Shown one piece after another: positions 1-16,209 of a DNA stretch of 38,292 bases. Origin of the DNA: Planctomycetaceae bacterium (GTDB lineage Bacteria > Planctomycetota > Phycisphaerae > Phycisphaerales > SM1A02). The notes under the pieces were generated by a model. That model was not told the DNA's origin, did not search any database, and saw nothing but the letters and a program-made list of their open reading frames with translations. The first letter of the stretch is position 1, and each line of letters opens with the position of its first letter. The stretch spans positions 18,064-56,355 of the forward strand of contig NYSY01000055.1 of NCBI GenBank assembly GCA_002683215.1, read 5' to 3'. Both the position numbers and the translations under genes were made by a program.

Positions 1-359
1 CCGACACCGATCATCAGGATGCCGACGGTGATGATCCCCGAGCCGGCGCCGACCGCACCGCCTCCGATCACGTCGACGACGTTGGGGACGTTCACCTTTT
101 CGGGGATGGCGAGGTTGCCCACGATCCGCAGGATGAAGAGGAAGAAGCTGAAGAGGGCGAGCAGGGACATGCCCCAGGCCCATTCCCGCATCCCCGAACC
201 GAGCATCGCGACGGCGAGCGGCTCCCAGAAGGCGAATGCGAGGGCGCCGCTGGCCAGCACGCAGGCGAGGTGGACGACGCCGCTGAAGAAGCCTTCCTTG
301 AAAGCGAACCAGTAGATCGCGAGGAGGCAGAAGAGCACGGCGAGGACGTTGATGATCAT
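1..359 (-). CDS. CvpA-like integral membrane protein (3' end outside window)
   Basis: The minus strand from the ATG at 359 reads through the window edge without a stop, so at least 119 residues are visible and the C-terminus is missing. The visible part has hydrophobic segments at about residues 1-22, 27-45, 55-80 and 95-119. The loop KVNVPNVVDVIGGGAVGAGS resembles the stretch before the last helix of CvpA/colicin V production proteins, where a Gly-rich turn precedes a helix. CvpA proteins are inner-membrane proteins whose biochemical role is poorly defined. The gene is last of three on the minus strand, 56 nt after the PilB-like gene, so it may be cotranscribed with it. No clear Shine-Dalgarno precedes the ATG. 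The family call is by pattern and could be wrong; a multi-pass membrane protein is secure. Confidence 0.55.
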   Translation of the reverse strand, partial: MIINVLAVLFCLLAIYWFAFKEGFFSGVVHLACVLASGALAFAFWEPLAVAMLGSGMREWAWGMSLLALFSFFLFILRIVGNLAIPEKVNVPNVVDVIGGGAVGAGSGIITVGILMIGV

Positions 360-415
360 GGGAGGCGGTCCTGGGTCGGAAGGACGTCGAATCGAAAAGG
401 GACGGGGCGGTCGGA

Positions 416-2137
416 TCAGCCGGTCGAACTCGCGGCCGGACGGCTCTTGGAGGCCTTGGGCTTTTCGGATGCGAGCACACGGCCCACCTCCTCGAGGCTG
501 GTCTCGCCACGGGCGACCTTTCGCAACGCGGCTTCCTGCATCATCATCATGCCGAGCGAGCGGCGGGCATGGGTGTAGGCGCCCTTGAAGTCGCTGGCGA
601 GCAGGAGCTTCCGGGCCTCCCGATCGATCGGCATCACTTCGAACGCGGCGGTCGTGCCGAGGAATCCGGTACCGCCGCAGGTGGGGCACTCCTCGATCTT
701 GTTCTTCACCTGGATCCGACCGCTCTGGCGGTAGAGCTGCACGTTCGCGGGATCCTTGATCCCCAGCTTCTTCGCCTGTTCCGCGTTCGGGCTGTAGGGC
801 GTTCGGCAGTTGGTGCAGAGGCGACGCATGACCCTACAGGTCACAGCGGCGACAAGCGGCGCGATCGCCTTCTTCGCGGCCTCCTGATCCTTCGGCTCCG
901 CAGCGGCGCGGAGCCAGTCCGTCACCACGCCGCGGATGCCGTCCTTGGAGGGCACGCCGACGTAGATCAGCGGGCCGTCCCGGCCGGGGAGCGACGCCTG
1001 AACGGCGGTCGCGGGATCCTTGAGGTCGCTGACCATCACGATGTCCGGCCCACGACGCAGGATCGACCGGAGCGTGGTCGGGAAGTCCTCATCCGCGGTC
1101 GCGGGATCGTACGCGAGGTGGTCGACGCCTTCGATGCCCCGTTGCACGTCCCGCTCCAGCGACTTGATGTTCGACGTGTACGCGTCGTGGCGCTGCATCA
1201 GGCCGTAGAGGGTCGACGTCTGTCCCTGGCCCGGCGCGGTGCCGACCAGGATGACGCCGTGCTGGCCTTCGGCGGTGCCGGACGGCGCGAGGATCTCGAG
1301 TTGCTCGGGTTCGAAGCCGAGGTCCTTGAAATCGCGATCGAGCTGCTGGTCGCGATTGACGTCGAGGCGGAACAGGATGCCCTGGGATCCGCCGCTGGTG
1401 GTCAGGTGCAGGTGGGTGCTCTTGGTGGCGTTCCTGATCCGGATGCCGAGCTCGCCTCGTTGCAGCTTGCGATTCTCCGCGACGTCGAGGCCGGCGGTCT
1501 GCTTCAGGTAGTCGATGATGCTCTTGGCGGTCTCGGTCGGAATCGGCTCCCGCTTGTAGCGCACGCTGTCGACGATCTGCGAGGCGGCCCCGCCGTTCTT
1601 GGTCAGCGCGATCTCGAGCCGGGAGGCGCGGGCGTCGATGGCGGGGAGGAGCAGGTCCTCCATCGCCATGTGGACCCCCTTCAGCGGATCCTCTTCGCCG
1701 GGAACCTGGACGTCGCCGTTCGGACCGGAGAGCACCGCGGCGGCGGAACGCTGCTCGTTTCGAGAACGCCTGGCGGCCATCCGGTCGGACATCGACATGT
1801 CCGCCAGGCTGAACTTCTGATTCTCGTCGACGATGTTGTCGTTGCGATACTTCCAGTACGCGAGGATCGGTGCGAGCAGGACCACGATCATCGCGGGCAG
1901 CCCCGCCCAGAAGATCGGAATCACCAGCACCACCACGATCGCGAGACAGGCGGTGACCAGGAAGATCGAGTTCCAGAGCCCGGCCTTCAGGTTGAAGTAC
2001 CGGAGGTCCTTCTCGAAGATCTGGCCGAGGACCCGGAGATAGACACCGAGTACCACCAGCATGAGGATCGGCTTGATGAAGTCGACCAGGTTGATGGCGG
2101 AGGCGGTCGCGGCGAAGGTCAGCATCGGTTCTTCCAT
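416..2137 (-). CDS. Membrane-anchored PilB/GspE-like protein with degenerate ATPase motifs
   Basis: A 573-residue protein with two hydrophobic segments at about residues 20-40 and 56-94, then a cytoplasmic part with the layout of type II secretion/type IV pilus assembly ATPases. The Walker A equivalent at 300-311 (TAPGQGQTSTLY against GPTGSGKTTTLY) has Gln306 in place of the essential Lys. The Walker B region reads GPDIVMVSDLKDPATA, so the usual G-E-I/V-R-D has become S-D-L-K-D. The C-terminal zinc-type pairs are kept: C441-x2-C444 and C484-x2-C487. Family members hydrolyse ATP to extend pili or drive secretion; this one probably cannot bind ATP normally and may be a structural or regulatory partner of the intact PilT encoded 28 nt upstream. 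The start at 2137 has no clear ribosome site. The ATG at 2125 follows GGAAG at good spacing and is a reasonable alternative. Confidence 0.8.
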   Translation of the reverse strand: MEEPMLTFAATASAINLVDFIKPILMLVVLGVYLRVLGQIFEKDLRYFNLKAGLWNSIFLVTACLAIVVVLVIPIFWAGLPAMIVVLLAPILAYWKYRNDNIVDENQKFSLADMSMSDRMAARRSRNEQRSAAAVLSGPNGDVQVPGEEDPLKGVHMAMEDLLLPAIDARASRLEIALTKNGGAASQIVDSVRYKREPIPTETAKSIIDYLKQTAGLDVAENRKLQRGELGIRIRNATKSTHLHLTTSGGSQGILFRLDVNRDQQLDRDFKDLGFEPEQLEILAPSGTAEGQHGVILVGTAPGQGQTSTLYGLMQRHDAYTSNIKSLERDVQRGIEGVDHLAYDPATADEDFPTTLRSILRRGPDIVMVSDLKDPATAVQASLPGRDGPLIYVGVPSKDGIRGVVTDWLRAAAEPKDQEAAKKAIAPLVAAVTCRVMRRLCTNCRTPYSPNAEQAKKLGIKDPANVQLYRQSGRIQVKNKIEECPTCGGTGFLGTTAAFEVMPIDREARKLLLASDFKGAYTHARRSLGMMMMQEAALRKVARGETSLEEVGRVLASEKPKASKSRPAASSTG

Positions 2138-2165
2138 GGCGTTGGGCGTTGGCCGGATGCGGGGA

Positions 2166-3299
2166 TCAGGAGATCCCCTTGAGGCGCATCTTGAGTTCTT
2201 CGGGCTTCGGGGTCGCCGCGAGGGCGACGTCCTGATGGATGTACTCCTGCTCGACGAGGCGGACGAGCGAGGTCGTGAAGTCGACCATGCCCTCTTCGTG
2301 GCTCTGCTTGATGATCTGCAGGAGCTCCCCTTCGCGGGCCTCCAGAATGTACTTCTGGACCGCCGGGGTGTTCAGCAGGATCTCGAGGGCCGGGATCCGG
2401 GCGATGTCCTTGTGGAGCGTCTTCAGGAGCTTCTGGTAGATGATCGCCCGGAGGTTGTACGCGAGGAGCTTTCGGAGCTGCTCGCGTTCGTTCTCGGGGA
2501 AGAGGTCGTAGATTCGGCCGAATGTCTGCCAGGCGCTCGAGGCGTGAATCGTTCCGAACACGAGGTGGCCCGTCTCGGCCGCGCGGATCGCGGCTTCGAA
2601 GGTCTCGTAGTCGCGCATCTCGCCGACCAGCACCACGTCGGGATTCTCCCGGACGAGGGCGCGAAGGGCATCGTTGAAGTTCAGGCAGTCGATCCCGATC
2701 TCACGCTGGTTGATCGTCGCCTTGTCGTCGTTGAAGATGTACTCGATCGGATCCTCGATCGTGACGATGTGCACCCGCTTCCGCTCGTTGACGTACTGGA
2801 GCATCGACGCGATCGAGGTCGACTTGCCCGAGCCCGTCACCCCCGAGAAGAGGATGAGGCCCTGCGCGGCCAGGGAGACGTCCCCGAGGATCTCGGGGAG
2901 GTAGAGGTCCTCGAACTTCATGATGTTCGAAGTGATCAGCCGGGCGGCGATCGCCGGCTTGCCGCGGGTCATGAACAGATTCACGCGGAAGCGGCAGCGG
3001 TCGTCATAGTCGTACGCGAAGTCGATCGAACCACGATTGCGGAAGTACTCGAACTGGTTCTCGTCGAGCACGTCCTTCGCGACCTGGAACATCAGGTCGA
3101 CGGTGAGTTCGTCGACCTGCATGCCCTTCAGCTCGCCGCGCAGCCGGAGCCGGGGCGACTGGCCGGTCTTCACGATCAGATCGCTCGCATCGAACTTGAT
3201 GCAGGCTTCGAGCCACTTCCGCCATGCCTTGAGGCCTTCGCCCTTGACCGTGCCGAGGCTCGGGTCGATGGGGGCCGCGATGAGCGTATCGCTGTGCAA
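2166..3299 (-). CDS. pilT: PilT-family twitching/retraction ATPase
   Basis: A 377-residue hexameric-type secretion ATPase, the usual length for PilT, which depolymerises type IV pili at the inner-membrane base. All key elements are intact: Walker A GVTGSGKS at 153-160, the Asp box around 181-187 (TIEDPIEY), Walker B DVVLVGEMRDYETFEAA at 221-237, and the PilT signature AIRAAETGHLV at 237-247 followed by the His box GTIHA. The open frame continues upstream to 3650, but that part is Arg/Pro/Ser-rich and unlike PilT. The TTG at 3297-3299 is preceded by AAAGGA at 6 nt and begins the conserved N-terminal domain, so I use it. The PilB-like gene follows 28 nt downstream, which suggests an operon. It could also be a PilU or a PilT-like accessory ATPase of a divergent pilus. 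Confidence 0.92.
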   Translation of the reverse strand: MHSDTLIAAPIDPSLGTVKGEGLKAWRKWLEACIKFDASDLIVKTGQSPRLRLRGELKGMQVDELTVDLMFQVAKDVLDENQFEYFRNRGSIDFAYDYDDRCRFRVNLFMTRGKPAIAARLITSNIMKFEDLYLPEILGDVSLAAQGLILFSGVTGSGKSTSIASMLQYVNERKRVHIVTIEDPIEYIFNDDKATINQREIGIDCLNFNDALRALVRENPDVVLVGEMRDYETFEAAIRAAETGHLVFGTIHASSAWQTFGRIYDLFPENEREQLRKLLAYNLRAIIYQKLLKTLHKDIARIPALEILLNTPAVQKYILEAREGELLQIIKQSHEEGMVDFTTSLVRLVEQEYIHQDVALAATPKPEELKMRLKGIS

Positions 3300-3305
3300 A
3301 TCTGG

Positions 3306-3311
3306 TCCTTT
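3306..3311 (-). promoter_or_regulatory. Shine-Dalgarno deciding the pilT TTG start
   Basis: The minus strand reads AAAGGA, then 6 nt, then TTG. No in-frame ATG of equal quality lies near the start of the conserved PilT domain, so this site supports the non-ATG start. Confidence 0.6.
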
Positions 3312-3562
3312 ACGCTGCCTGCTCGGTGCCGCATCCGGAGTCGGGTGGGGGCGACCCGTTTTCGGGATCGAGCTCGATGGGTTGAGTCGGCGGTCACCGC
3401 CGGAGGAGAAAACGTCGGAGGGTTGGACGATCCGAGGATCGTCGGGTTCACGGAGATCCGGATTTTCTCGCTTCCCGGGCCTCGACCGACGAAAAGATGA
3501 CCCGGCGTCGTGCCGTCGAGAACGGGGGAAGCGACCCCTGAGGGGCCGGATTCGAATCGCAC

Positions 3563-3568
3563 ATCCTA
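3563..3568 (-). promoter_or_regulatory. Possible -10 element (TAGGAT) for the pilT group
   Basis: The minus strand reads TAGGAT in the 424-nt region between the divergent pilT and guaB genes. It matches the TAGGCT/TAGGAT/TAGAAT hexamers seen upstream of several other genes in this window. No convincing -35 box accompanies it. If used, the pilT leader would be about 250 nt. The rest of 3300-3723 shows no gene, only GC-rich sequence with promoter potential for both genes. Confidence 0.3.
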
Positions 3569-3723
3569 CCAGACGGCGGCGGGATTCGGGAGCGCGCGGT
3601 CGCTCGACATCGGAGGTCCGGTCCGATCGGAATCGGTGGTTCGAGTCCACTCGACCGGGAAGCGGTCGATTCCCGGAACTCCGGTCGGTTGACGGGCGGG
3701 AACCTCGCGGGGATCATCCTCAG

Positions 3724-5205
3724 ATGGAACAGAAGATTCTTCAGGATGCGATCACCTTCGACGACGTGCTGTTGGTCCCCGCGTACAGCGAGATCACGCC
3801 CGAATCGGCCGACCCCTCGACCCGGCTGACCCGCCGGATCAACATCAACATTCCCCTGATTTCCGCGCCGATGGACACCGTGACGGAGTCCTCGCTCGCG
3901 ATCGCCCTCGCCCAGGAGGGCGGGCTCGGGATCATCCACAAGAACCTCTCGCCGTCGCTCCAGGCCCGCGAGGTCCAGAAGGTCAAGCGGAGCGAGAATG
4001 GCGTCATCACCGATCCCGTGACACTGGGGCCCGAAGACACCATCGACCGTGCCAACCAGCTGATGCGGGAGCAGGGCGTCAGCGGTTTTCCGGTCACCGA
4101 TTCCGGCCGAGGTGACGGCCGGCTCCTCGGGATTCTGACCCGCCGCGACATGAAGTTCCTCGACCCCTCTCGGTACGGCGAGAGCCGGGTCGACCATGTG
4201 ATGACCAGGCAGAACCTCGTGACCGCGGCGCCGGGAATCGATCCGTCCGCCGCGGAGGCCATTCTGAGCGAGGCCCGGGTGGAGAAGCTCCTGATCGTGG
4301 ACGAGTCGGGACGGCTTTCCGGCCTGATCACCATGCGGGACCTCGAGAACGTCCGCAAGCATCCGGCGGCGTGCCGTGACGAACGAGGCCGGCTCCGGGT
4401 GGGGGCCGCGACCGGGGTCCTCCAGTTCGATCGGATCCAGGCCCTCATCGACGCCGAGGTCGACGTCGTGGTGGTCGACACCGCCCACGGCCACAGCAAG
4501 AACGTCGTCGCGACGGTCCGGGAGATCAAGCAGAGCCATCCGGAGATCGACGTGATCGCGGGAAACATCGCTACGGCGGACGGGGCGCAGGCCCTGATGG
4601 ACGCGGGCGCCGACGCGGTCAAGGTCGGGATCGGGCCGGGGTCGATCTGCACCACCCGGATCGTGACCGGCGTCGGCGTGCCTCAGATCACCGCGGTCCG
4701 CAACGCCGTGTCGGTCTGCGAGCCCGCGGGGGTCCCGGTGATCGCCGACGGCGGCATCCGGCAGTCCGGCGACATCGCCAAGGCGATCGCGGCGGGCGCG
4801 AGCGTCGTGATGCTGGGAAGCCTCTTCGCCGGGATGGACGAGAGTCCGGGCGAGCTGGTCCTGCACGGGGGACGCCGGTTCAAGAGCTATCGAGGCATGG
4901 GCAGCGAAGGCGCGATGTCCGCGGGCAGCGCCGACCGGTATGGCCAGGCCGACTCCCGGAAGTTCGTCCCGGAAGGGGTCGAAGGCATGGTCGCGTATCG
5001 AGGCCCGCTGTCTGAATTCGTCTACCAGCTGGTGGGCGGCGTGAAGAGCGCCATGGGCTACTGCGGCTGCTCCACGCTCGAGGCCTTCCGCACCGACAGC
5101 CGATTCGTCCGAGTCACCGCGGCGAGCATGATCGAGAGCCATCCGCACGACATCACCATCACGCGGGAAGCGCCGAACTACATGAGCACCGCGAGCGGCT
5201 CCTGA
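3724..5205 (+). CDS. guaB: IMP dehydrogenase
   Basis: A 493-residue enzyme, normal length for bacterial GuaB, which oxidises IMP to XMP with NAD+, the committed step of GMP synthesis. The N-terminus has the family motif [16 protein letters not shown]. Two CBS domains occupy about residues 95-215 within the TIM barrel. The catalytic loop [17 protein letters not shown] carries Cys309, and the flap has [10 protein letters not shown] and DRYGQ with the catalytic Arg. The ATG at 3724 begins exactly at the conserved MEQKI start; a longer upstream frame is not homologous. The gene stands alone: it diverges from pilT and converges on the sulfatase gene with only 15 nt between stop codons. Identification is secure. 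Confidence 0.98.
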
Positions 5206-5220
5206 CCGGGCCACGGCACC

Positions 5221-6801
5221 TCACGCGTCGTACTGCCGGCGAAGTTCCTCCAGCCGGGCTTCCAGTCCGGCCTTGATCTCCGCGTGGCCGGGGTCATCCG
5301 CGAGGCTCTTGAGCTCGTCGGGATCGGCGTCGAGGTCGTAGAGCTCCCAGCAGCCGGGATCCGCGGGGCCGTCGCCGTCGGGGGCGACTTCCGGGAAGCG
5401 GATGAGTTTCCAGCGATCGGTGCGAACCCCGTCGTGCTTGGGCACGGTGTGCGGCCCTTCACTCTCGTAATAGCGGTAGTACACGGCGTCACGCCATTCC
5501 GCCGGCGTCTCCCGACCGCCGGATCGGAGGTGGTCCGCGAAGCTCTCGCCGTGCATTCGTTCCGGCGCGTCGATGCCTGCGAGATCGAGCAGGGTCGGGG
5601 CGAGATCGATGTTCTGGGCCAGCAGGTCACTGGTGGTCCCGCCATCGATCCGGTTCGGCCACCGGACGATGAACGGCGTGCGGAAGCTCTCTTCGTACAT
5701 CCACCGCTTGTCGTACCAGCCGTGCTCGCCGAGGTACCACCCCTGGTCGCTGGTGTAGATCACCAACGTGTCGTCCGCGATGCCGAGGTCGTCGAGCTCG
5801 TCGAGGATCCGTCCGACCCCTTCGTCGACGGCGGCGACGCATTCCAGGTAGTCCTTGACGTAGCGCTGGTATTTCGCCCGGGTGAGATCGTCTCCCGAGA
5901 GTTCACCCGACTCGACCGCCGCCCGGTATGCGGCGTTGACGTCGTCGTAGTACGCGTTCCACGCCAACGCCTGGGTCTCGTCGAGTTCCGGCGGTGGGAT
6001 CAGTTTCAGATCCCGCGGATCGAGATGCCGGGCGATGGTCATCGTCTGGAGCGTGCTCGCAGGACTTCGTCCGGCGTAATCGTCCAGCAGCGTCTCCGGC
6101 TCCGGGACCATGACGTCGTCGTAGAGCCGGAAGTGCCGAGGGTTCGGATCCCATCGTCGATGCGGGGCCTTGTGCTGGACGATCAGCGCGAACGGCCGCC
6201 CGTCCTCGTCCCGGCTCGCCGCGAACCGCCGCAGCGCGTCGACGCCCTGATCGGTGATCAGGTCGGTGGTGTATCCGGGGATCCTCACCCGGCCCTCCGG
6301 CGTGATCATGGGCGGGTTGTAGTAGGGCCCCTGGCCGATCAGGACCTTCCAGTCGTCGAAACCCACCGGATTGCTCTTGAGATGCCACTTCCCGAAGACC
6401 CCGGTTCGATAGCCCGAATCCCGGAGCATGGCGGGCCAGGTCGGCTGCGTGCCGTCGAAGACCTCGGCGTTGGTGGGCACCCCGTGCCGGGTCGAGAAAC
6501 AGCCGGTCAAGAAGGCCGCCCGGCTCGGAGCGCAGATCGAGTTTTCGACGAAGAACCGGTCGAATCGCATGCCTTCCGACGCGATGCGATCGATCGACGG
6601 GGTCTGGTTGACCCGGGTGCCGTCGGGCCGCCCGTAGGCACTGATCGCCTGCCAGGCGTGGTCGTCGCTCATGATGAAGAGGATGTTCGGCCTCGAGTCC
6701 GGTTCGCCGCCGGCGGGAGCGGAAGCGGGCGGGTCGCCGGGCAGCGGCGATGCGAGCATGCCGAGGACGATCACGAGCGGGAGGCGGGGGAGGTGCGGCA
6801 T
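5221..6801 (-). CDS. Secreted arylsulfatase-type sulfatase
   Basis: A 526-residue exported sulfatase of the alkaline phosphatase superfamily. Residues 1-20 form a short signal peptide, followed by a Pro/Ala-rich linker. The metal-binding start PNILFIMSDDHAW is at 38-50 with Asp46 and Asp47. The activation motif C90-A-P-S-R94 is the type converted to formylglycine by a sulfatase-modifying enzyme. Further conserved blocks include GKWHLK, TSDQGWYLGEHGWYDKR and a C-terminal WELYDLDADPDE. The layout fits planctomycete iduronate-2-sulfatase/heparan-type enzymes acting on sulfated polysaccharides, but the substrate cannot be told from sequence alone. AAGGA lies 10 nt before the ATG. It diverges from glycogen phosphorylase. 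No modifying enzyme is encoded in the window. Confidence 0.95.
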   Translation of the reverse strand: MPHLPRLPLVIVLGMLASPLPGDPPASAPAGGEPDSRPNILFIMSDDHAWQAISAYGRPDGTRVNQTPSIDRIASEGMRFDRFFVENSICAPSRAAFLTGCFSTRHGVPTNAEVFDGTQPTWPAMLRDSGYRTGVFGKWHLKSNPVGFDDWKVLIGQGPYYNPPMITPEGRVRIPGYTTDLITDQGVDALRRFAASRDEDGRPFALIVQHKAPHRRWDPNPRHFRLYDDVMVPEPETLLDDYAGRSPASTLQTMTIARHLDPRDLKLIPPPELDETQALAWNAYYDDVNAAYRAAVESGELSGDDLTRAKYQRYVKDYLECVAAVDEGVGRILDELDDLGIADDTLVIYTSDQGWYLGEHGWYDKRWMYEESFRTPFIVRWPNRIDGGTTSDLLAQNIDLAPTLLDLAGIDAPERMHGESFADHLRSGGRETPAEWRDAVYYRYYESEGPHTVPKHDGVRTDRWKLIRFPEVAPDGDGPADPGCWELYDLDADPDELKSLADDPGHAEIKAGLEARLEELRRQYDA

Positions 6802-6913
6802 GTGGCGATTCCTTCAGGATCAGGGGACTCGACGAACCGTATCGACTTCCGAGGTGATTGTCCGGTTTTCATCATCGAATTCCACTGCCGTGGAGGCCCT
6901 CGATCGGCCGATC

Positions 6914-6919
6914 TAGGAT
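6914..6919 (+). promoter_or_regulatory. Possible -10 element (TAGGAT) for glgP
   Basis: TAGGAT about 92 nt before the glgP start, in the 210-nt region shared with the divergent sulfatase gene. It is one of the recurring TAG-type hexamers of this window. No -35 box is evident. Confidence 0.3.
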
Positions 6920-7011
6920 GAGTGCGGGCCTTTTCGAGGATCCGCCCGGGTGATCCGGCTCACGTTCGCCGGATTCGCCACCTCCGTTTCCAGTCACCAG
7001 GACGAACTCGC

Positions 7012-9456
<2,445 letters not shown>

Positions 9457-9489
9457 CGGAGATCGTGGTTCAAGCCTGACGGGACCGCG

Positions 9490-10329
9490 ATGATCGACAC
9501 GCACCTTCATCTCTGGAATCCGGACACGATCCCGAGGGCCTGGCTCGCCGGGGTCCCGGATCTGGACCGGGCGATGCTTCTGGAGGACTATCGCCTCGTT
9601 TCGGCGCGGGCGGGTATCGGCACCGCGGTCCACGTCGAGACCGATGTGGATGACGAGGGCCTCGAGCGGGAGCTCGCTGAAGTGGCCACCGTCATGCGGG
9701 GGAACCCACTCGTCCGGGCGGCGGTGGTGGGTGGCCGACCCGGTCGCCCAGGATTCGAAGCATGGTTGGATGGCGTGGCCCATCTGCCCGGGGTCGTCGG
9801 GCTGCGGCGGGTGTTTCATGGTCTCGATGGCGAGCCGGAGGCCTTCCTCACGGCGTCGCTCGCCGAAGATCTCCGCCGCCTCGGCGAACAAGGCCTGCTC
9901 TTCGAGCTGTGTGTCCGCCCGGATCAGCTGCAGACGGCGATCCGACTCGTGGACGCATGCCCGGCGACCAACTTCGTGCTCGACCATCTCGGCAGACCCG
10001 ACGTCGCCGCAGGGGTGACGGCGGCGTGGTCGGATGGCTTGGGGCGGCTGGCGGATCGGAAGAACGTCGTCGCGAAGCTGTCAGGTCTCATCGAGTGTGC
10101 GGCCGGGGCCGACTGGAACACGGAGACGTTTCGTCCGTTCTTCGAACTGGCACTCGGACGATTCGGTCCCGATCGGCTGGTATGGGGCAGCAACTGGCCG
10201 GTCTGCGAGCTCGGGGGGTCGCTTGAGCGATGGGTGGTGGCGACCCGATCGCTGCTGGAAGGCCACTCGGAATCGGTTCGAAATGCGGTGCTGGAGGGGA
10301 ATGCCCGCCGGATCTACCGGTTGCATTGA
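9490..10329 (+). CDS. Amidohydrolase family 2, COG3618-type TIM-barrel hydrolase
   Basis: A 279-residue metal-dependent hydrolase similar to L-fucono/rhamnono-lactonases. It begins with the metal-binding T-H5-L-H7-LWN motif, continues with the barrel strand motif NFVLDHLGRPD in the second half, and ends with LVWGSNWPVCEL, the GSNWPVC signature common in COG3618 proteins. Such enzymes open sugar lactones in deoxysugar catabolism. That would suit an organism that degrades sulfated polysaccharides, though no fucose or rhamnose genes adjoin. It lies 33 nt after glgP and may be cotranscribed. The start at 9490 fits the family, where MIDTHxH is often the first segment. A strong inverted repeat lies just after its stop codon. 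The exact substrate is unknown. Confidence 0.85.
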   Translation: MIDTHLHLWNPDTIPRAWLAGVPDLDRAMLLEDYRLVSARAGIGTAVHVETDVDDEGLERELAEVATVMRGNPLVRAAVVGGRPGRPGFEAWLDGVAHLPGVVGLRRVFHGLDGEPEAFLTASLAEDLRRLGEQGLLFELCVRPDQLQTAIRLVDACPATNFVLDHLGRPDVAAGVTAAWSDGLGRLADRKNVVAKLSGLIECAAGADWNTETFRPFFELALGRFGPDRLVWGSNWPVCELGGSLERWVVATRSLLEGHSESVRNAVLEGNARRIYRLH

Positions 10330-10331
10330 CC

Positions 10332-10380
10332 CCGCGCGGCCGGGCGTTTTCGGCGATGATGTCCCCGGCCGGCCGCGCGG
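10332..10380 (+). repeat. Perfect 12-bp inverted repeat, possible stem-loop
   Basis: CCGCGCGGCCGG at 10332-10343 is exactly complementary to 10369-10380, with a 25-nt loop. It starts 3 nt after the amidohydrolase stop and ends about 20 nt before the ribosome site of the next gene. No U-tract follows, so it is not a canonical terminator. It could end the upstream transcript or act in the leader of the 10412-15396 cluster. Confidence 0.5.
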
Positions 10381-10411
10381 TGCGGACGGTCGTTGACGAC
10401 GAGGAGGTCGC

Positions 10412-11422
10412 GTGGACGAGCAGCCCGGACCAAGCCCTGAGACGGAGGCGTGGCGACGGATCGCCGCGGCGATCGTCGCCGGAACCGAGGACCAATCGGT
10501 CGCGGGGGCGTTCTGGGTGGCGGTCGAGGCAAGGATCTGGAGCATCGTTCTCTCCGGCCGCCGAGCCGATCCCGGAAGCCACCGGGTCCGCCCGAAATAC
10601 CGGGATCTCTTCTTCGAGGATACGGCCGCGGCGGAGGACTTCGTGTCCGAACTCGCAGCGCAGACCGATCGACGTCGGATCGCCGGGCTCTATCAGAAGC
10701 AGGAATTCCTCGGTCTCGAACGCGAGGAGATGCTTCAGCGGATCGCGGCGCGGTCGTTCGTCCGGCGACGTGCGGTGTCCTTCATTCGAAGTGCCGGCCG
10801 GGGTGGAATGGTCGGGCTTCCCGAAGGGGCGCGGGGCCCCGGTTCGTTCGACGCCGGGCCCGACGGCGGCTGGGGCGGAACGATCGAGGATCGAAACGAC
10901 GACGGATCAACGGCAGCGGAATTCGGCCTGCTGCATCGGCTGCTCGACCACGAGCCGGTCCTCCGTCTGGAGCTCCGAGGCAAGCGGCCGAACGCGGTCG
11001 AGATGACCGCGGCGTTGCACACCTGGCTCCTGCTCGATTCGGCGCTGGCGGATCGGGCGACGCTCCTCGAACGACTGCAGAATGATGTCGTCGGCGGAAT
11101 CGAAGCGGTGGAGACGGCGATCCGGGAAGGCTGGGACGAGGTCCGTCGGGAGCTCGTCGCCTGTGACGACGAGATCGCAGGTCATCCCGGCATGGAACAG
11201 AAGCGTCTGGAGGAGATCGATCGACGCCGGACCCAGCTTCATGCCCGGTGGATCTTCGAACCGCTCTCCAGCACGCGAGTCCGCGACCTCCTTGGACTTC
11301 CCTCTTTGAACGCGGGCGAAAAGCGGAATTCCAACTACCGTTCGGAGCGGACCATCCTGTTCCCGATGATCGGTGCGCTGTTGTCGAATCACCTTGCCGA
11401 ACCCGAGGCCTCCGACGAATGA
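10412..11422 (+). CDS. Unrecognised protein with weak sigma-70-like features (cluster gene 1)
   Basis: A 336-residue soluble protein with a GTG start preceded by a strong GAGGAGG ribosome site at 4 nt. I do not recognise a named family. Residues 35-132 resemble sigma-70 region 2 in layout: an acidic FEDTAAAEDFVSELAAQ (68-84) like the DAEDLVQE helix, then LQRIAARSFVRRRAVSFIRS (108-127) like the helix that contacts the -10 element. The C-terminal part around 288-327 (STRVRDLLGL, then YRSERTILFPMIGALL) could be a helix-turn-helix like region 4. This is pattern similarity only. The long middle part is acidic and helical. The stop codon overlaps the next ATG (ATGA), so translation of the two genes is coupled. 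Alternative: an unrelated helical DNA-binding or adaptor protein. Confidence 0.6.
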   Translation: MDEQPGPSPETEAWRRIAAAIVAGTEDQSVAGAFWVAVEARIWSIVLSGRRADPGSHRVRPKYRDLFFEDTAAAEDFVSELAAQTDRRRIAGLYQKQEFLGLEREEMLQRIAARSFVRRRAVSFIRSAGRGGMVGLPEGARGPGSFDAGPDGGWGGTIEDRNDDGSTAAEFGLLHRLLDHEPVLRLELRGKRPNAVEMTAALHTWLLLDSALADRATLLERLQNDVVGGIEAVETAIREGWDEVRRELVACDDEIAGHPGMEQKRLEEIDRRRTQLHARWIFEPLSSTRVRDLLGLPSLNAGEKRNSNYRSERTILFPMIGALLSNHLAEPEASDE

Positions 11423-12045
11423 CCATCGCGGATCCGCAGGCCCAACTCGCGTCGCTCCTCGCCCTCGAACAACCGGTCGAGCCCACGATCCCACTTCGCT
11501 TCGGGTCTCGACGCGGCCGGGACGAACATGTCCGAAAGCATGTGCTCGGAACTCGGGCGGAGCGATGGTGGGACCTGCTCGGGCAGGATGCGATCGATGC
11601 CGCCCGGCAGGCCGATCACGATTTCGGTGAGGGGCACCGGGATCCTCGATTCGAGCGGCTTGCCCGCGCTTACGAGTCGTTTCTTTCGGAGCGGCTGCTG
11701 GCCGCGGTCCAGACGGGTCTTCACCACGTCCACATCGTCACCTTCGAACTCGCAACGCCTCCCCCTGGCGTGACGGCGATGCTCGGGTATCGAGTGTCCC
11801 GCCGGGTCGTGGTCGCGTGGTCGCCCAAGGAGAAAATGCGAATCGTGGCTGGATTTCCGGTCAGGGACGGGGAATCCCCCGCGTACACCCTCTGGAGCGG
11901 TTTTCGGCACGACGTGAAGGCGTCGGCCGGGCGTTTCTCCCGAGGCATTCGAACCCGGATGCTCGATCGACATCGCCACCATCAGGAACGCCTCGTCGCC
12001 ATCCACGACGGCGAAGCGGACTGGGGTCCGGAGTCTGCAAAGTGA
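11419..12045 (+). CDS. Unrecognised 208-residue protein (cluster gene 2)
   Basis: A basic soluble protein that begins inside the stop codon of the preceding gene through a 4-nt ATGA overlap, so the two are very likely made together. No signal peptide or membrane segment is visible. The N-terminal half is helical and rich in charged residues (DEHVRKHVLGTRAERWWDLL, then ERLARAYESFLSERLLAAV). The C-terminal half has alternating hydrophobic segments that look like a beta sheet (HHVHIVTFELA, RRVVVAWSP, RIVAGFPV), then YTLWSGFRHDV and an Arg/His-rich tail. A small alpha+beta fold with an aromatic/His-rich end could be a nuclease- or toxin-like domain, but no catalytic motif can be assigned. Function unknown. 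Confidence 0.7.
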   Translation: MTIADPQAQLASLLALEQPVEPTIPLRFGSRRGRDEHVRKHVLGTRAERWWDLLGQDAIDAARQADHDFGEGHRDPRFERLARAYESFLSERLLAAVQTGLHHVHIVTFELATPPPGVTAMLGYRVSRRVVVAWSPKEKMRIVAGFPVRDGESPAYTLWSGFRHDVKASAGRFSRGIRTRMLDRHRHHQERLVAIHDGEADWGPESAK

Positions 12046-12183: not shown

Positions 12184-13140
12184 ATGACCAAACATTCGAC
12201 ATCGGATTCACCCACTCCGGACCCGAACGATTCCGCGGCTACCGCGGCGATGCTCGCTGACTTCCGTCACGAGCTCGACGCGGAGTCCGCGTGGTTCGAA
12301 CAACCCGTGGACTCGTCGGCCGAGGCGCCGGAACCACGTGACTTCATCGGCTGGCTGCTTCGGGCCGCCCGTCTCGCCGCCTGCGGCGACCCGGTTCCGT
12401 TTCAGGCATGGCCCCGGTTGGCGACGAAGCTCGGCATCCGGGTGGCCGATGCCATCGCGGAGACCGCGGAGGCTGGAATCGCCGTGCTCGACGAATCCTC
12501 GGGCATCCCGCTCGGCGAGGGGATCGGGGATGCGGAAGACGCCTCCTGCCTGATGGCGGTCGAAGGCGAGCTCACCGGGCTGTTGCAGGATTCCGCCGCC
12601 TGGGTGCGACTCTGGACGATGGCCGCCGAAGAGATTCCGCTGGACGACCTTGCCTTTGAAATCGTCGAACACCGCCGACTCACCTGGCCGATTCCGTCCG
12701 CCGCACGGCTCGCGATCGTGGCCACGCCCCTTCATGAAATCGATTTTCTCACCGCGGCGAAGGTGACGACGCCGGCGGTTCGACTGGCGCCGGTCTTCGA
12801 TTCGGCCCCGGAGCTCGCGCACTTTGATGGCGGGAGACCATCACCACGAATGCTCGATCGATTCAATTCCCGACACGGACGGGGGGTCACCCCCAGTGGT
12901 CTCGATCTCGAAGTTCGGGCGGTGCTCGACGAATGGTGGGGCGTCTTCATCCGCATCGAGGGAACCGCGGTGAAGGCGACTCGGCACGTCCGGCTTGGAA
13001 CGCTCGCGTTGAAGGAGGTCGCGGATCAACCGGGGCTGTGGACCGCGGCGATCGACCGAATGCCGCTCGAAGCGATCCTGCGAATCCTCAACGGCGACAT
13101 CGCCGTACGAACCGACGACGGCGGTCGTTTTCTCGTCTGA
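12184..13140 (+). CDS. Unrecognised 318-residue protein (cluster gene 3)
   Basis: A soluble, acidic protein with a clear ribosome site (GAGGAAAG, 7 nt before ATG). The first 45 residues are low in complexity and rich in Ser, Thr, Pro and Asp, probably disordered. Residues 50-170 are helical and Ala/Glu-rich (DFIGWLLRAARLAA, then ATKLGIRVADAIAETAEAGI). The C-terminal 170 residues alternate hydrophobic strands with charged loops and contain ARLAIVATPLHEIDFLTAAK and VLDEWWGVFIRIEG. No catalytic motif, signal peptide or membrane segment is seen. The gene follows gene 2 after 138 nt and precedes the Lon-like gene by 105 nt, all on one strand, so a shared process is likely. Function unknown. Confidence 0.7.
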   Translation: MTKHSTSDSPTPDPNDSAATAAMLADFRHELDAESAWFEQPVDSSAEAPEPRDFIGWLLRAARLAACGDPVPFQAWPRLATKLGIRVADAIAETAEAGIAVLDESSGIPLGEGIGDAEDASCLMAVEGELTGLLQDSAAWVRLWTMAAEEIPLDDLAFEIVEHRRLTWPIPSAARLAIVATPLHEIDFLTAAKVTTPAVRLAPVFDSAPELAHFDGGRPSPRMLDRFNSRHGRGVTPSGLDLEVRAVLDEWWGVFIRIEGTAVKATRHVRLGTLALKEVADQPGLWTAAIDRMPLEAILRILNGDIAVRTDDGGRFLV

Positions 13141-13245: not shown

Positions 13246-15396
13246 ATGAACGAGCAGGGGTCCGCTCAGAACCTCGATGCGCCGACCACGGTGGTCGAAT
13301 CACCAGACGCGACCAGCGGCATAAGTTGGCGACGGGTCTACGAGTGTCCTTCGCCGGACGCCTTCCGGACCCGTCACCAGGCACGGCCTGAAGAACGCGG
13401 TTGGATCGCCCTCGATCGGACCTTCGCCGATCGGGTGGGATCCACACCGGCCTTCGAACCGGAGATCCACCCCGAGATCCGCGCGATCTCCCTCGCGGAT
13501 GCGACGGTGTTTCTTCTGGCGGCGACCCATACGGACCCACCCGGTCGAATCGGTCATGTCGCCGCTCGGACGGCAGCCCGCTTTTCGGGACACGCGACGG
13601 TCCGGATGGCCGGGGCGACCCTTCATGCGGGCGAACAGGTGATCGAGCGGGTGGTCGACCGGCTGATGGAGGTCCATCGAGTGCTGGCGCCCGAGGCGGC
13701 GCCGCCGGAATTCGAAATCGCGATCCCCCGCGAGGGCGTCGGTGACAGCCATGCCCTTGCGGCCGGAGTCGCCTGCGTCCTCGCGCTCTTCGGTTGCCGG
13801 TGTCGGACGTCGACCGCTGCGACCGGCGGCTACGACGCCGCCACGGGACGATTCCGACCGGTCCCGTCTGCGACGCTGGGGGCGAAACTCGCGGCGGCCG
13901 AACGTTGGAACATGCGTCGCGTCATGATCGTCGAAGGGCAGACCTTCGACGGCATCACCGGCGTCGCCCCGGCCTCCGCCGGGGATGCATCGCGATTCTG
14001 GCGCGGCATCGAACTGCTGGAGTTGCCCGCCGATCCGGCGGCCCTTCCGATTCGGGTGGTCGAAGAGATCGCGGACGCGCCGCGAGTCGACGCCCTTCGG
14101 CAGGCATTGGGACTCTATGACCGCCACGTGGCTCGAAATCTCACCACCACGTTGGAGGCCGTGCTCGAGGCGACCGCGCCGTTTCTTCCGCCGCGATTCG
14201 ACGCCGAAGTCGCACGCACCTGCGGCGGCGATGCTGGGGCGGACCGCCGGGAGTGCCTCGAAGAATCGACCGAGGGCTCGAACGAGGACGAGTGCATCGA
14301 CTCGATCCTCGCCCTCATGGCCGCCGACATCCGGAGTCGAAAGCATCTGCACGCCGGTCGTTCCGAAGAAGCTTCCGCCTGGTACGACATCGCGAATCGG
14401 TTTCGGGGGCTCGACGATCTGCCCGACGGCGTCCTTGGCGATCACCTCCTGTACGAACAGACGGCGCACCGGGCCGTGATCGCGATCGACCAGGGCGTGC
14501 TGGAAGACGATGGGCCCGTTTCGGGGCCCCACGCGGTGCTCGGGCGCCGAATCGCCGATCTGGATGAACGGTGGTGCACGACCAACCAGTCGATGCAGCG
14601 GATATTCCTTGCGAACACGCGGGCGAGGCAACGGTTGTATCTCGCCAGACTCGAACTCGACGTGGCGGGGGGCGAGGCGGCGCTCGGCGACTGCCTCGCC
14701 CACGAATCCCGCTGGGCGTCGCTGCTCGAGACGTATGCGGAACAACGCCTTCGACTCGGCAACACCAATCTCCGGCGACAGGAGAACTTCTGGATCGAGC
14801 ACCTCGTCACGTTCGCGATGCTTCAGGATCCCCGGGGTTTCGACCGACTGGCGTGGCGACCCGATCGCGGTCGTCTCAAGATTCTGCTGGAGGCTCGATT
14901 GCCCTGGATGGAGCGTGCCCCCGGGGACGTCTCGAAACACGGGGCGTACGACCTGCTCGCGCTGGTGCAGTGGCGATGGCTCGCGGACGGACCGGATCCG
15001 GATCTGCTCCGTGCCGCGGAACGACGCCTTCTGGAGATCGCCTCCGCGACGGGCTCGGGCGAACCCCCGCATCCACTCCCGTCGATCGCAGGATGGCTGC
15101 TTCGATCGGATGTCGACGGGGTGCTCGATCGCCCGGCGATCCAACGGATCCTGATCGCGGCGGTGAACGCGCACGGGGTGGTCCCTGACGCATCGCCGGA
15201 CCCGCGGGCGGGCAGCATCCAGCGGGTGCTGGCCCACCGGTCTGCACGGATCCTCGAGTTGGAAGGGGTTTCGGACGAACGCGGGGGCGCCTGGTCGCAA
15301 CGGATTTCGACCGCCCTTCGCCCTGATTCGCTCGCGCGATATCTGCACCGGATCATCGAGGATCCCGAGTTGATGCTCGCCCGCTGTCCCTACTGA
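13246..15396 (+). CDS. Lon-type (S16) Ser-Lys protease domain protein lacking AAA+ module (cluster gene 4)
   Basis: A 716-residue soluble protein. Residues about 75-235 match the proteolytic domain of Lon. A strand/helix pair GHATVRMAGATLHAGEQVIE corresponds to the Lon segment before the active site, FEIAIPREGVGDSHALAAG corresponds to the catalytic-serine loop and gives Ser168, TAATGGYD matches the Lon AMTGEI strand, and GAKLAAAERWNMRRVMIVEG matches the LKEKLLAA helix and gives Lys214. The Ser-Lys spacing of 46 residues is close to the 43 in Lon. No Walker A or B and no Lon substrate-binding domain is present. The N-terminal 70 residues are unrelated to Lon. Residues 240-716 are almost wholly helical and may be a TPR/HEAT-like scaffold. 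Substrate unknown; a protein from genes 1-3 is a natural candidate. The S16 assignment is by motif and spacing. Confidence 0.75.
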   Translation: MNEQGSAQNLDAPTTVVESPDATSGISWRRVYECPSPDAFRTRHQARPEERGWIALDRTFADRVGSTPAFEPEIHPEIRAISLADATVFLLAATHTDPPGRIGHVAARTAARFSGHATVRMAGATLHAGEQVIERVVDRLMEVHRVLAPEAAPPEFEIAIPREGVGDSHALAAGVACVLALFGCRCRTSTAATGGYDAATGRFRPVPSATLGAKLAAAERWNMRRVMIVEGQTFDGITGVAPASAGDASRFWRGIELLELPADPAALPIRVVEEIADAPRVDALRQALGLYDRHVARNLTTTLEAVLEATAPFLPPRFDAEVARTCGGDAGADRRECLEESTEGSNEDECIDSILALMAADIRSRKHLHAGRSEEASAWYDIANRFRGLDDLPDGVLGDHLLYEQTAHRAVIAIDQGVLEDDGPVSGPHAVLGRRIADLDERWCTTNQSMQRIFLANTRARQRLYLARLELDVAGGEAALGDCLAHESRWASLLETYAEQRLRLGNTNLRRQENFWIEHLVTFAMLQDPRGFDRLAWRPDRGRLKILLEARLPWMERAPGDVSKHGAYDLLALVQWRWLADGPDPDLLRAAERRLLEIASATGSGEPPHPLPSIAGWLLRSDVDGVLDRPAIQRILIAAVNAHGVVPDASPDPRAGSIQRVLAHRSARILELEGVSDERGGAWSQRISTALRPDSLARYLHRIIEDPELMLARCPY

Positions 15397-15438: not shown

Positions 15439-16209
15439 ATGCCTCGTGCCTCGGGAAAGACTCGTGCCAGGTCCAGGGTCGCGGATGCCGCGGAGGCGAT
15501 CTCGTCCCAGCTCTCCGCGGAGGTCGGGGCTTTGACGTTCGGCGAACCGGTCGATGTGGTCTACAACCCGCTCGACTACGCGTGGGCATCGCACCGGGAG
15601 TACCTTCGGCGATATGCGCGGCGCGGCATTCGCGCCCTGCTGCTGGGGATGAATCCCGGCCCGTGGGGCATGGCTCAGACCGGCGTGCCGTTCGGCGAGG
15701 TCGAGATGGTGCGGACCTTCCTGGGCATCGAGGCCCCGGTCGAGAAGCCGACGATCGAACATCCGAAGCGTCCGATCACCGGCTTCGCCTGTACCCGCCG
15801 CGAAGTGAGTGGAGCACGATTGTGGGGTTGGGTCGCCGAGCGTTTCACCGACGCAGATGCCTTCTTCGACGACTTCTTCGTCTGGAACGACTGTCCGCTC
15901 TCCTTCATGGAGGCGGGCGGCCGCAACCGCACTCCGGACAAACTGCCGATCGACGAACGCCGGCCCCTGGAAGCGGCGTGTGGACGAGGCCTGCGGGCGA
16001 TGGTCGATCTGCTGGAGCCGGAGATGGTGGTCGGCGTCGGCGGTCATGCGACGCGTCGGCTCGCGACCACCCTCGCGGATCGGGTCGAGGCGGGCATGCG
16101 GGTGGGAACGATCCTGCATCCGTCCCCCGCGAGCCCGGCCGCGAATCGAGGCTGGGCGCCGGTGGCCGAAGCGCAGATGGTCGAGATGGGCCTGTTGTCC
16201 CGGTCGTGA
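15439..16209 (+). CDS. SMUG1-type uracil-DNA glycosylase
   Basis: A 256-residue single-strand-selective monofunctional uracil-DNA glycosylase, which removes uracil and oxidised pyrimidines such as 5-hydroxymethyluracil in base excision repair. The match to animal SMUG1 is striking: LLGMNPGPWGMAQTGVPFGE at 69-87 carries the active-site Asn72, EHPKRP and EVSGARLWGW follow, then NDCPL and GRNRTPDKLP, and LHPSPASPAANRGW at 226-239 contains the second catalytic motif with His227. Length is close to that of SMUG1. The ATG at 15439 lies 42 nt after the Lon-domain gene on the same strand; an extended basic N-terminus (15 residues) precedes the core. It converges on the HEPN-like gene with 15 nt between. 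Identification is strong. Confidence 0.94.
   Translation: MPRASGKTRARSRVADAAEAISSQLSAEVGALTFGEPVDVVYNPLDYAWASHREYLRRYARRGIRALLLGMNPGPWGMAQTGVPFGEVEMVRTFLGIEAPVEKPTIEHPKRPITGFACTRREVSGARLWGWVAERFTDADAFFDDFFVWNDCPLSFMEAGGRNRTPDKLPIDERRPLEAACGRGLRAMVDLLEPEMVVGVGGHATRRLATTLADRVEAGMRVGTILHPSPASPAANRGWAPVAEAQMVEMGLLSRS

Follow-up and report, generated by a model that had tools for sequence, protein, structure and literature searches.

Two CRISPR-linked proteases act through the release of a sigma factor. To our knowledge, it is an open question how such protease-sigma relays originated and how frequent they are outside CRISPR. CalpL, as described in PMC11417357 and PMC12751052, consists of a Lon domain followed by a C-terminal SAVED domain, and it cuts the anti-sigma protein CalpT, thereby freeing the ECF sigma factor CalpS. 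In type III-E CRISPR, according to the account in PMC10028731, Csx29 (TPR-CHAT) cuts Csx30, an inhibitor of CASP-sigma. Caspase systems in which an ECF sigma factor and a TPR protein occur as separate genes are described in PMC8195603. Among the Lon proteases themselves, LonC (e.g. MtaLonC, TTC1975) shows a LonB-like consensus at its active site (PMC3391209), and TPR goes unmentioned in the main text of a survey of Lon architectures (PMC2605481).

The stretch of DNA analysed here (the window; 38,292 nucleotides) carries four genes, A, B, C, and D (Table 1), that invite comparison with these systems. As in CalpL/CalpT/CalpS, a Lon-type domain is followed in D by a C-terminal sensor-like region, and a sigma-like protein and a third protein are encoded alongside. 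Unlike CalpL, D is predicted to have an alpha-solenoid instead of SAVED, its C-terminal region being all-helical with MalT-like matches; it may be noted that a fold missing from the VIA list, such as SAVED, is not thereby proven absent. Unlike the CalpL/CalpT/CalpS loci, the window locus showed no CRISPR genes (four neighbours tested). Among the 40 PDB matches listed for the D domain profile, there was no CalpL chain. B and C are likened to CalpT by role in the parts list and not by detected kinship, and membership of D in a module of the CalpL/CalpT/CalpS type is not claimed. With Csx29/Csx30/CASP-sigma, the locus shares a helical-repeat protease accompanied by a sigma factor and a third gene, the third product being, in that system, the inhibitor of the sigma factor. 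Unlike D, Csx29 has a caspase-like (CHAT) and not an S16 protease, and is driven by the RNA-guided Cas7-11; C and B are compared with Csx30 by place in the parts list, not by detected relation. LonC is like D in having an S16 Ser-Lys domain without ATPase activity. In LonC, degenerate AAA+ motifs are found in a large N-terminal fragment, whereas D has its solenoid, placed C-terminal to the protease domain. LonA and LonB share with D a homologous proteolytic domain with a Ser-Lys dyad, but D, which falls in a separate clade, lacks both an AAA+ module and any match to an ATPase family.

Table 1. Features of the four-gene operon, in positions of the window
Feature	Coordinates	Strand	Remarks
Gene A	10412..11422	+	336 aa; putative divergent ECF-sigma-like protein, from fold prediction and comparison of profiles
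Gene B	11419..12045	+	208 aa; overlaps A stop by 4 nt
Gene C	12184..13140	+	318 aa; candidate sigma partner or anti-sigma
Gene D	13246..15396	+	716 aa; predicted S16 domain plus alpha-solenoid
Lon (S16) proteolytic domain of D	13495..14082	+	residues ~84-279; VIA match to 6on2_D (Z 19.1), profile, hhalign
Ser168 of D	13747..13749	+	predicted nucleophile in G-x-S; aligns with Lon serine
Thr193-Gly194 of D	13822..13827	+	TG strand motif of Lon, by alignment
Lys214 of D	13885..13887	+	predicted general base, by alignment
C-terminal alpha-solenoid of D	14068..15393	+	residues 275-716; TPR-like, all-helical in model
R-x-P-Y tail of D	15382..15393	+	extreme C-terminus, by D alignment

The proteolytic domain and solenoid of D

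An earlier note on this DNA had claimed that D keeps the catalytic serine and lysine of Lon in a protein otherwise unlike Lon, and had proposed superposing a predicted structure on the Lon protease domain. The AlphaFold2 model of D (mean pLDDT 85, pTM 0.86) bore this out, the predicted fold being that of S16. All the 50 Foldseek matches listed were Lon (best E 4.7e-6), and in VIA the region 84-279 was superposed on a Lon P domain, that of 6on2_D, with 172 residues aligned (Z 19.1, rmsd 2.7). BrxL (Z 18.2) and RadA (Z 16.8) were also close and have the same domain fold in VIA; we take the S16-like domain of ComM to be of this fold too. In BrxL, RadA, and ComM, the catalytic dyad has been lost and ATPase modules are present.

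Profile comparisons gave a similar result. When an S16-domain profile of 21 homologues was run against the PDB by hmmsearch, the best match was the Lon protease of M. jannaschii (1xhk_A, 3.4e-10), and among the distinct sequences with E<=10, of which 40 were listed, 37 were Lon or Lon-like proteases. In the printed alignments, the serine and lysine of D fall on those of Lon. By hhalign, the domain profile matched that of eight LonA domains of the bacterial class to which the window belongs with a probability of 96.6 (E 5e-10), while 30 column-shuffled control profiles reached 1.2 at most; the probability against LonB was 68.8. As judged from predicted structure and profiles, the likeness of D to Lon is more than chance.

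Searched singly, the window protein matches nothing in Pfam at E<=1, so this likeness escapes ordinary annotation. No match for it was found in NCBIfam, PADLOC, or PHROGs, nor in plasmids by tblastn, and phmmer against the PDB returned just one designed helical protein (E 0.08). No Pfam family covers the S16 domain at its cut-off. For Lon_C, three of the 21 family members gave matches, the best (E 0.0032) being below the cut-off, a shortfall that concerns detection by that model and not the fold.

The serine, the Thr-Gly pair, and the lysine are all coded within 13651-13950, the segment singled out by the earlier note. Ser168 and Lys214 are 46 residues apart, as against 43 for the dyad S679 and K722 of E. 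coli Lon, as given in PMC2605481; the spacing and the TG motif were thus as claimed. The other check named in the earlier note, on conservation of the dyad, also bore the claim out: Ser168 and Lys214 proved invariant in the alignment of 21 D homologues, at identities down to ~20%, and a row-by-row check found G-x-S, [TS]-G, and K in 21/21 each. The Gly of the TG motif is present in all 21, preceded by Thr in 19 and by Ser in the remaining two, while D, A, K, E, N, and S all occur as the middle residue of G-x-S. Over the whole 21-row alignment, in which identity to the window protein is as low as 19%, invariance holds in 11 columns, of which the S16 domain has six (G166, S168, L171, G194, V206, K214). 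By alignment and model, then, D is a member of peptidase S16 at the domain level, an assignment that, with the S16 fold and the dyad, is well supported, and it may well be an active protease.

On the N-terminal side of the S16 domain there are only 83 residues, of which ~24 have a pLDDT <50 in the model and are followed by short helices. No AAA+ module or ATPase family match was found (Pfam and model; 21 members). Since in LonA, LonB, and LonC the protease domain is preceded by an AAA+ module, which only LonC has in degenerate form, D is not a member of any of the three. The "own helical scaffold" of the earlier note is recognizable as the alpha-solenoid, whose best VIA match over residues 275-716 was domain III of MalT, 1hz4 (Z 17.4, rmsd 4.7, 315 aligned), a helical-repeat match and hence only moderately specific. 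R-x-P-Y forms the end of 20/20 aligned homologues with a stop of their own, the 21st (L056) being cut by the contig end. A distant relative, L058, terminates in LPY.

A scan of genome contigs for homologues of D gave three relatives, all from planctomycete metagenome-assembled genomes. Searches of whole genomes gave matches in 7/397 genomes of the class (single-protein query), 17/400 of the order, and 9/392 of the phylum, three of the last nine being weak (E 4e-6 to 9e-4). With the 21-row D profile, 35/387 genomes of the class were matched, seven with clear members (E below 1e-190). Thirteen loci were checked among the other class matches; a LonA gene with a P-loop and DGPSAG was present in eight, and motif search found no LonA in the remaining five. 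A D profile made without any Lon therefore detects LonA. Two weak partial matches (L059, L102) were excluded from every count, and a 96-aa ORF (L036, E 9.4e-4) was taken as a chance match.

A tree was built from 33 domains (21 D, 8 LonA, 4 LonB). A branch supported at 99/98 set all the D sequences apart from the rest, which supports the separate S16 lineage suggested earlier; this tree holds LonA and LonB only, ComM, RadA, and LonC having been left out. The branching order within D is uncertain, because long branches lead to several of the deep D sequences.

The operon and its sigma-like first gene

What the earlier note did not contain, and what is the more informative part, is the operon with a sigma-like gene in which D lies. 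The flanks of the D loci were searched with iterated profiles (23 sequences scanned, including L058 and L059). Counts refer to 20 distinct D loci (21 with a duplicate), since L042 shares its contig with L002 and L003 with G249:C53. The order and strand A-(B)-C-D were constant across these loci and across several bacterial families, with D last and on the same strand. C lies immediately 5' of D in 20/20, the match being partial in L052 and weak in L055. A was found in 18/20, 16 in the first scan plus L053 and L057 at E ~1e-3; of the other two, L055 has its contig end at C and in L052 none was found. Homologues of B occur in nine of the 20, two of them outside the family. The linkage of A, C, and D is maintained between bacterial families.

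Within the genus of the window, 4 nt are shared by the stop of A and the start of B in 7/7 loci measured; the B-C gaps are 138-273 nt (six of seven loci) and the C-D gaps 61-105 nt. By eye, no conserved promoter-like motif was seen in the genus, either 5' of A or in the gaps between B and C and between C and D. The window operon is surrounded by housekeeping-type genes, and 0/4 neighbours tested gave a defence-model match. Directly 3' of D is a uracil-DNA glycosylase superfamily gene (15439-16209; PF03167, E 3.7e-9), and a gene of similar size occupies that position in several other D loci.

The model of A (pLDDT 80.6, pTM 0.50) shows a region-2-like domain at residues ~6-132, a low-confidence linker (129-166), and a helical C-terminal part. 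A conserved helix-turn-helix-like stretch is visible by eye near the C-terminus; none of the tools gave it a convincing alignment with region 4. The top 13 VIA rows were all sigma factors (Z 6.8-4.5; first non-sigma Z 3.9), with 5or5 at Z 6.2 and rmsd 3.0 over 93 of 95 residues, scores each of which alone could be chance. Sigma factors also made up five of the seven Foldseek matches, which were weak (E 4-8). When a 14-row A profile was compared by hhalign with seven ECF sigmas (six from the window's own genome, one from L058), the probability was 9.6 (p 0.0033), and four other profiles (A3-A6) and 30 shuffles all stayed <1. Adding three more distant rows raised it to 65.5 (E 5.9e-5, 88 columns; 30 shuffles <=0.6), and the five most divergent rows alone gave 7.2. 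Pfam Sigma70 was found in 0/14 members at E<=0.1, and no other Pfam family matched; the gene in the A position of L057 gave a weak Sigma70_r2 match (E 0.095), below the cut-off. The best match of the A profile against the PDB (0.047, ClpB) was not credible and was set aside. Taking the VIA and hhalign results together, we read A as a divergent sigma-like protein with a probable region 2 fold, a reading that is moderately supported by model and profiles with every single score modest; it may work as a sigma factor.

B and C are without a recognised fold, and an anti-sigma role is therefore put forward for them only as candidates. Pfam gave no match among nine B members, and the best PDB match of the B profile (0.2) was not credible. 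B homologues keep the motifs H..KHV..R..RW and Y.L...R, the shape of which may resemble that of BECR-fold RNases, a nuclease-like fold; this identity, for which there was no supporting Pfam match, is not claimed. For C, the profile had no match in the PDB, and Pfam had none for the window protein and a single chance-level one among 18 members.

The N-terminal part of C also adjoins A in two loci without an S16 gene, where it is fused to a HEAT-repeat protein (L103, L104). The occurrence of A with the C N-terminus in the absence of S16 suggests that A and C are a core pair with an exchangeable sensor part. These versions of the module lie at 3841-9929 (L103) and 288-4225 (L104), the L103 copy behind an AAA ATPase gene.

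A more distant operon, L058 (G853:C631), has an ECF sigma, a 341-aa protein, and an S16-solenoid gene (6755-9778), in this order. The sigma here is genuine (Sigma70_r4_2, 1.1e-9, and Sigma70_ECF, both over cut-off). The S16-solenoid protein has 1007 aa; CxxC motifs are visible by eye, and its match to Lon_C (E 0.001) narrowly misses the cut-off. The middle gene had no detectable relation to any of the profiles A2-A5, C included. This operon (region 2038-11947) is flanked by type I-G cas3/cas8 (cas8g) and Septu PtuA/PtuB. Both paralogous D loci of genome G755, L053 (703-2109) and L054 (17636-19050), are on contigs with a Csm3/Cas7-IIId-like gene, and with cas1-cas2. The cas-linked S16-solenoid loci are thus three, chosen by eye before the scan. 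PADLOC matches to 'PDC' and 'PD-T4-6' near L054, L055, and L057 were discounted as evidence of defence, since in appearance they are generic matches to kinase, AAA, and unknown domains.

A possible protease-sigma relay

We propose, with about even confidence, that D frees the divergent ECF-like sigma A by cutting its partner, C or B, when a signal reaches the solenoid. The relay is modelled on CalpL/CalpT/CalpS and Csx29/Csx30/CASP-sigma, because the parts list is alike, and the cleavage step, its substrate, and the signal are suggested by that analogy. D would be an ATP-independent Ser-Lys peptidase of S16 fold, with the solenoid in place of a motor and serving to sense a signal or bind a partner. 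In the resting cell, C (or B) would hold A; upon a signal at the solenoid, D would cut C (or B), and A would be released to redirect transcription. In favour of this reading are the fold and dyad of D, the fixed operon, the sigma-like fold of A, and the genuine ECF sigma ahead of the L058 S16-solenoid gene; against it are the modest sigma scores of A, the featureless folds of B and C, the L058 middle gene with no detectable relation to C, and the housekeeping-type surroundings of the window operon, with 0/4 neighbours matching defence models. No description of an S16-solenoid-sigma operon was found by title and abstract in the open-licence PMC literature.

D could instead be a constitutive motorless housekeeping peptidase, with a LonC-like function, in genomes where LonA is missing, its neighbours being co-transcribed and not its substrates. 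LonC proves that motorless Lon-like proteases exist (PMC3391209), and 31 genomes of the window's family (G000 and 30 others, many incomplete) gave no LonA-grade Lon_C match, the best having an E of 8.2e-12 and the one checked, L060, being of LonB type with AAA_32. However, D matches are listed for just three of these 31 genomes (G000, G182, G255), which means that D does not generally stand in for LonA, and a generalist would have no need of an A-C-D linkage held between bacterial families. We therefore consider a housekeeping role unlikely. The other Lon_C matches in the 31 genomes are 490-620 aa long, ComM-like by length only.

It is quite improbable that D is a pseudo-protease, with an S16 domain that is a mere scaffold as in BrxL, RadA, and ComM and an operon that acts by binding. 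The closeness of the domain to BrxL and RadA in VIA would agree with such a role, but a dyad invariant in all 21 sequences, even at ~20% identity, and the good hhalign alignment with the catalytic LonA both speak against it.

That D degrades A directly, as a proteolytic shut-off and not a release, would fit the A-C-D operon and is nevertheless very unlikely, as C is kept at least as strictly as A (20/20 against 18/20) and A-C pairs occur without D (L103, L104). From these same two observations, A would have C as its direct partner, and D would work on the A-C pair.

Returning to the release of A by D, it is possible, though in our view doubtful, that the operon represents an undescribed signalling module of planctomycetes, where a Lon-fold protease with no motor and under the control of a solenoid frees a divergent sigma by cutting an inhibitor, as a stand-alone counterpart of the protease-sigma branches of type III CRISPR, put to antiviral use outside the window's family (copies lie near cas and Septu genes).

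D adds a lineage of putative Ser-Lys proteases that current family models miss, and the conserved sigma-like operon makes this finding more interesting. The operon is a compact chromosomal candidate for a protease-sigma relay with a defined active-site serine. As the serine is defined and the gene order is kept across families, a direct test of the idea would call for a single point mutant and the two candidate substrates. In these planctomycetes, the D operon may switch genes on by cutting an inhibitor.
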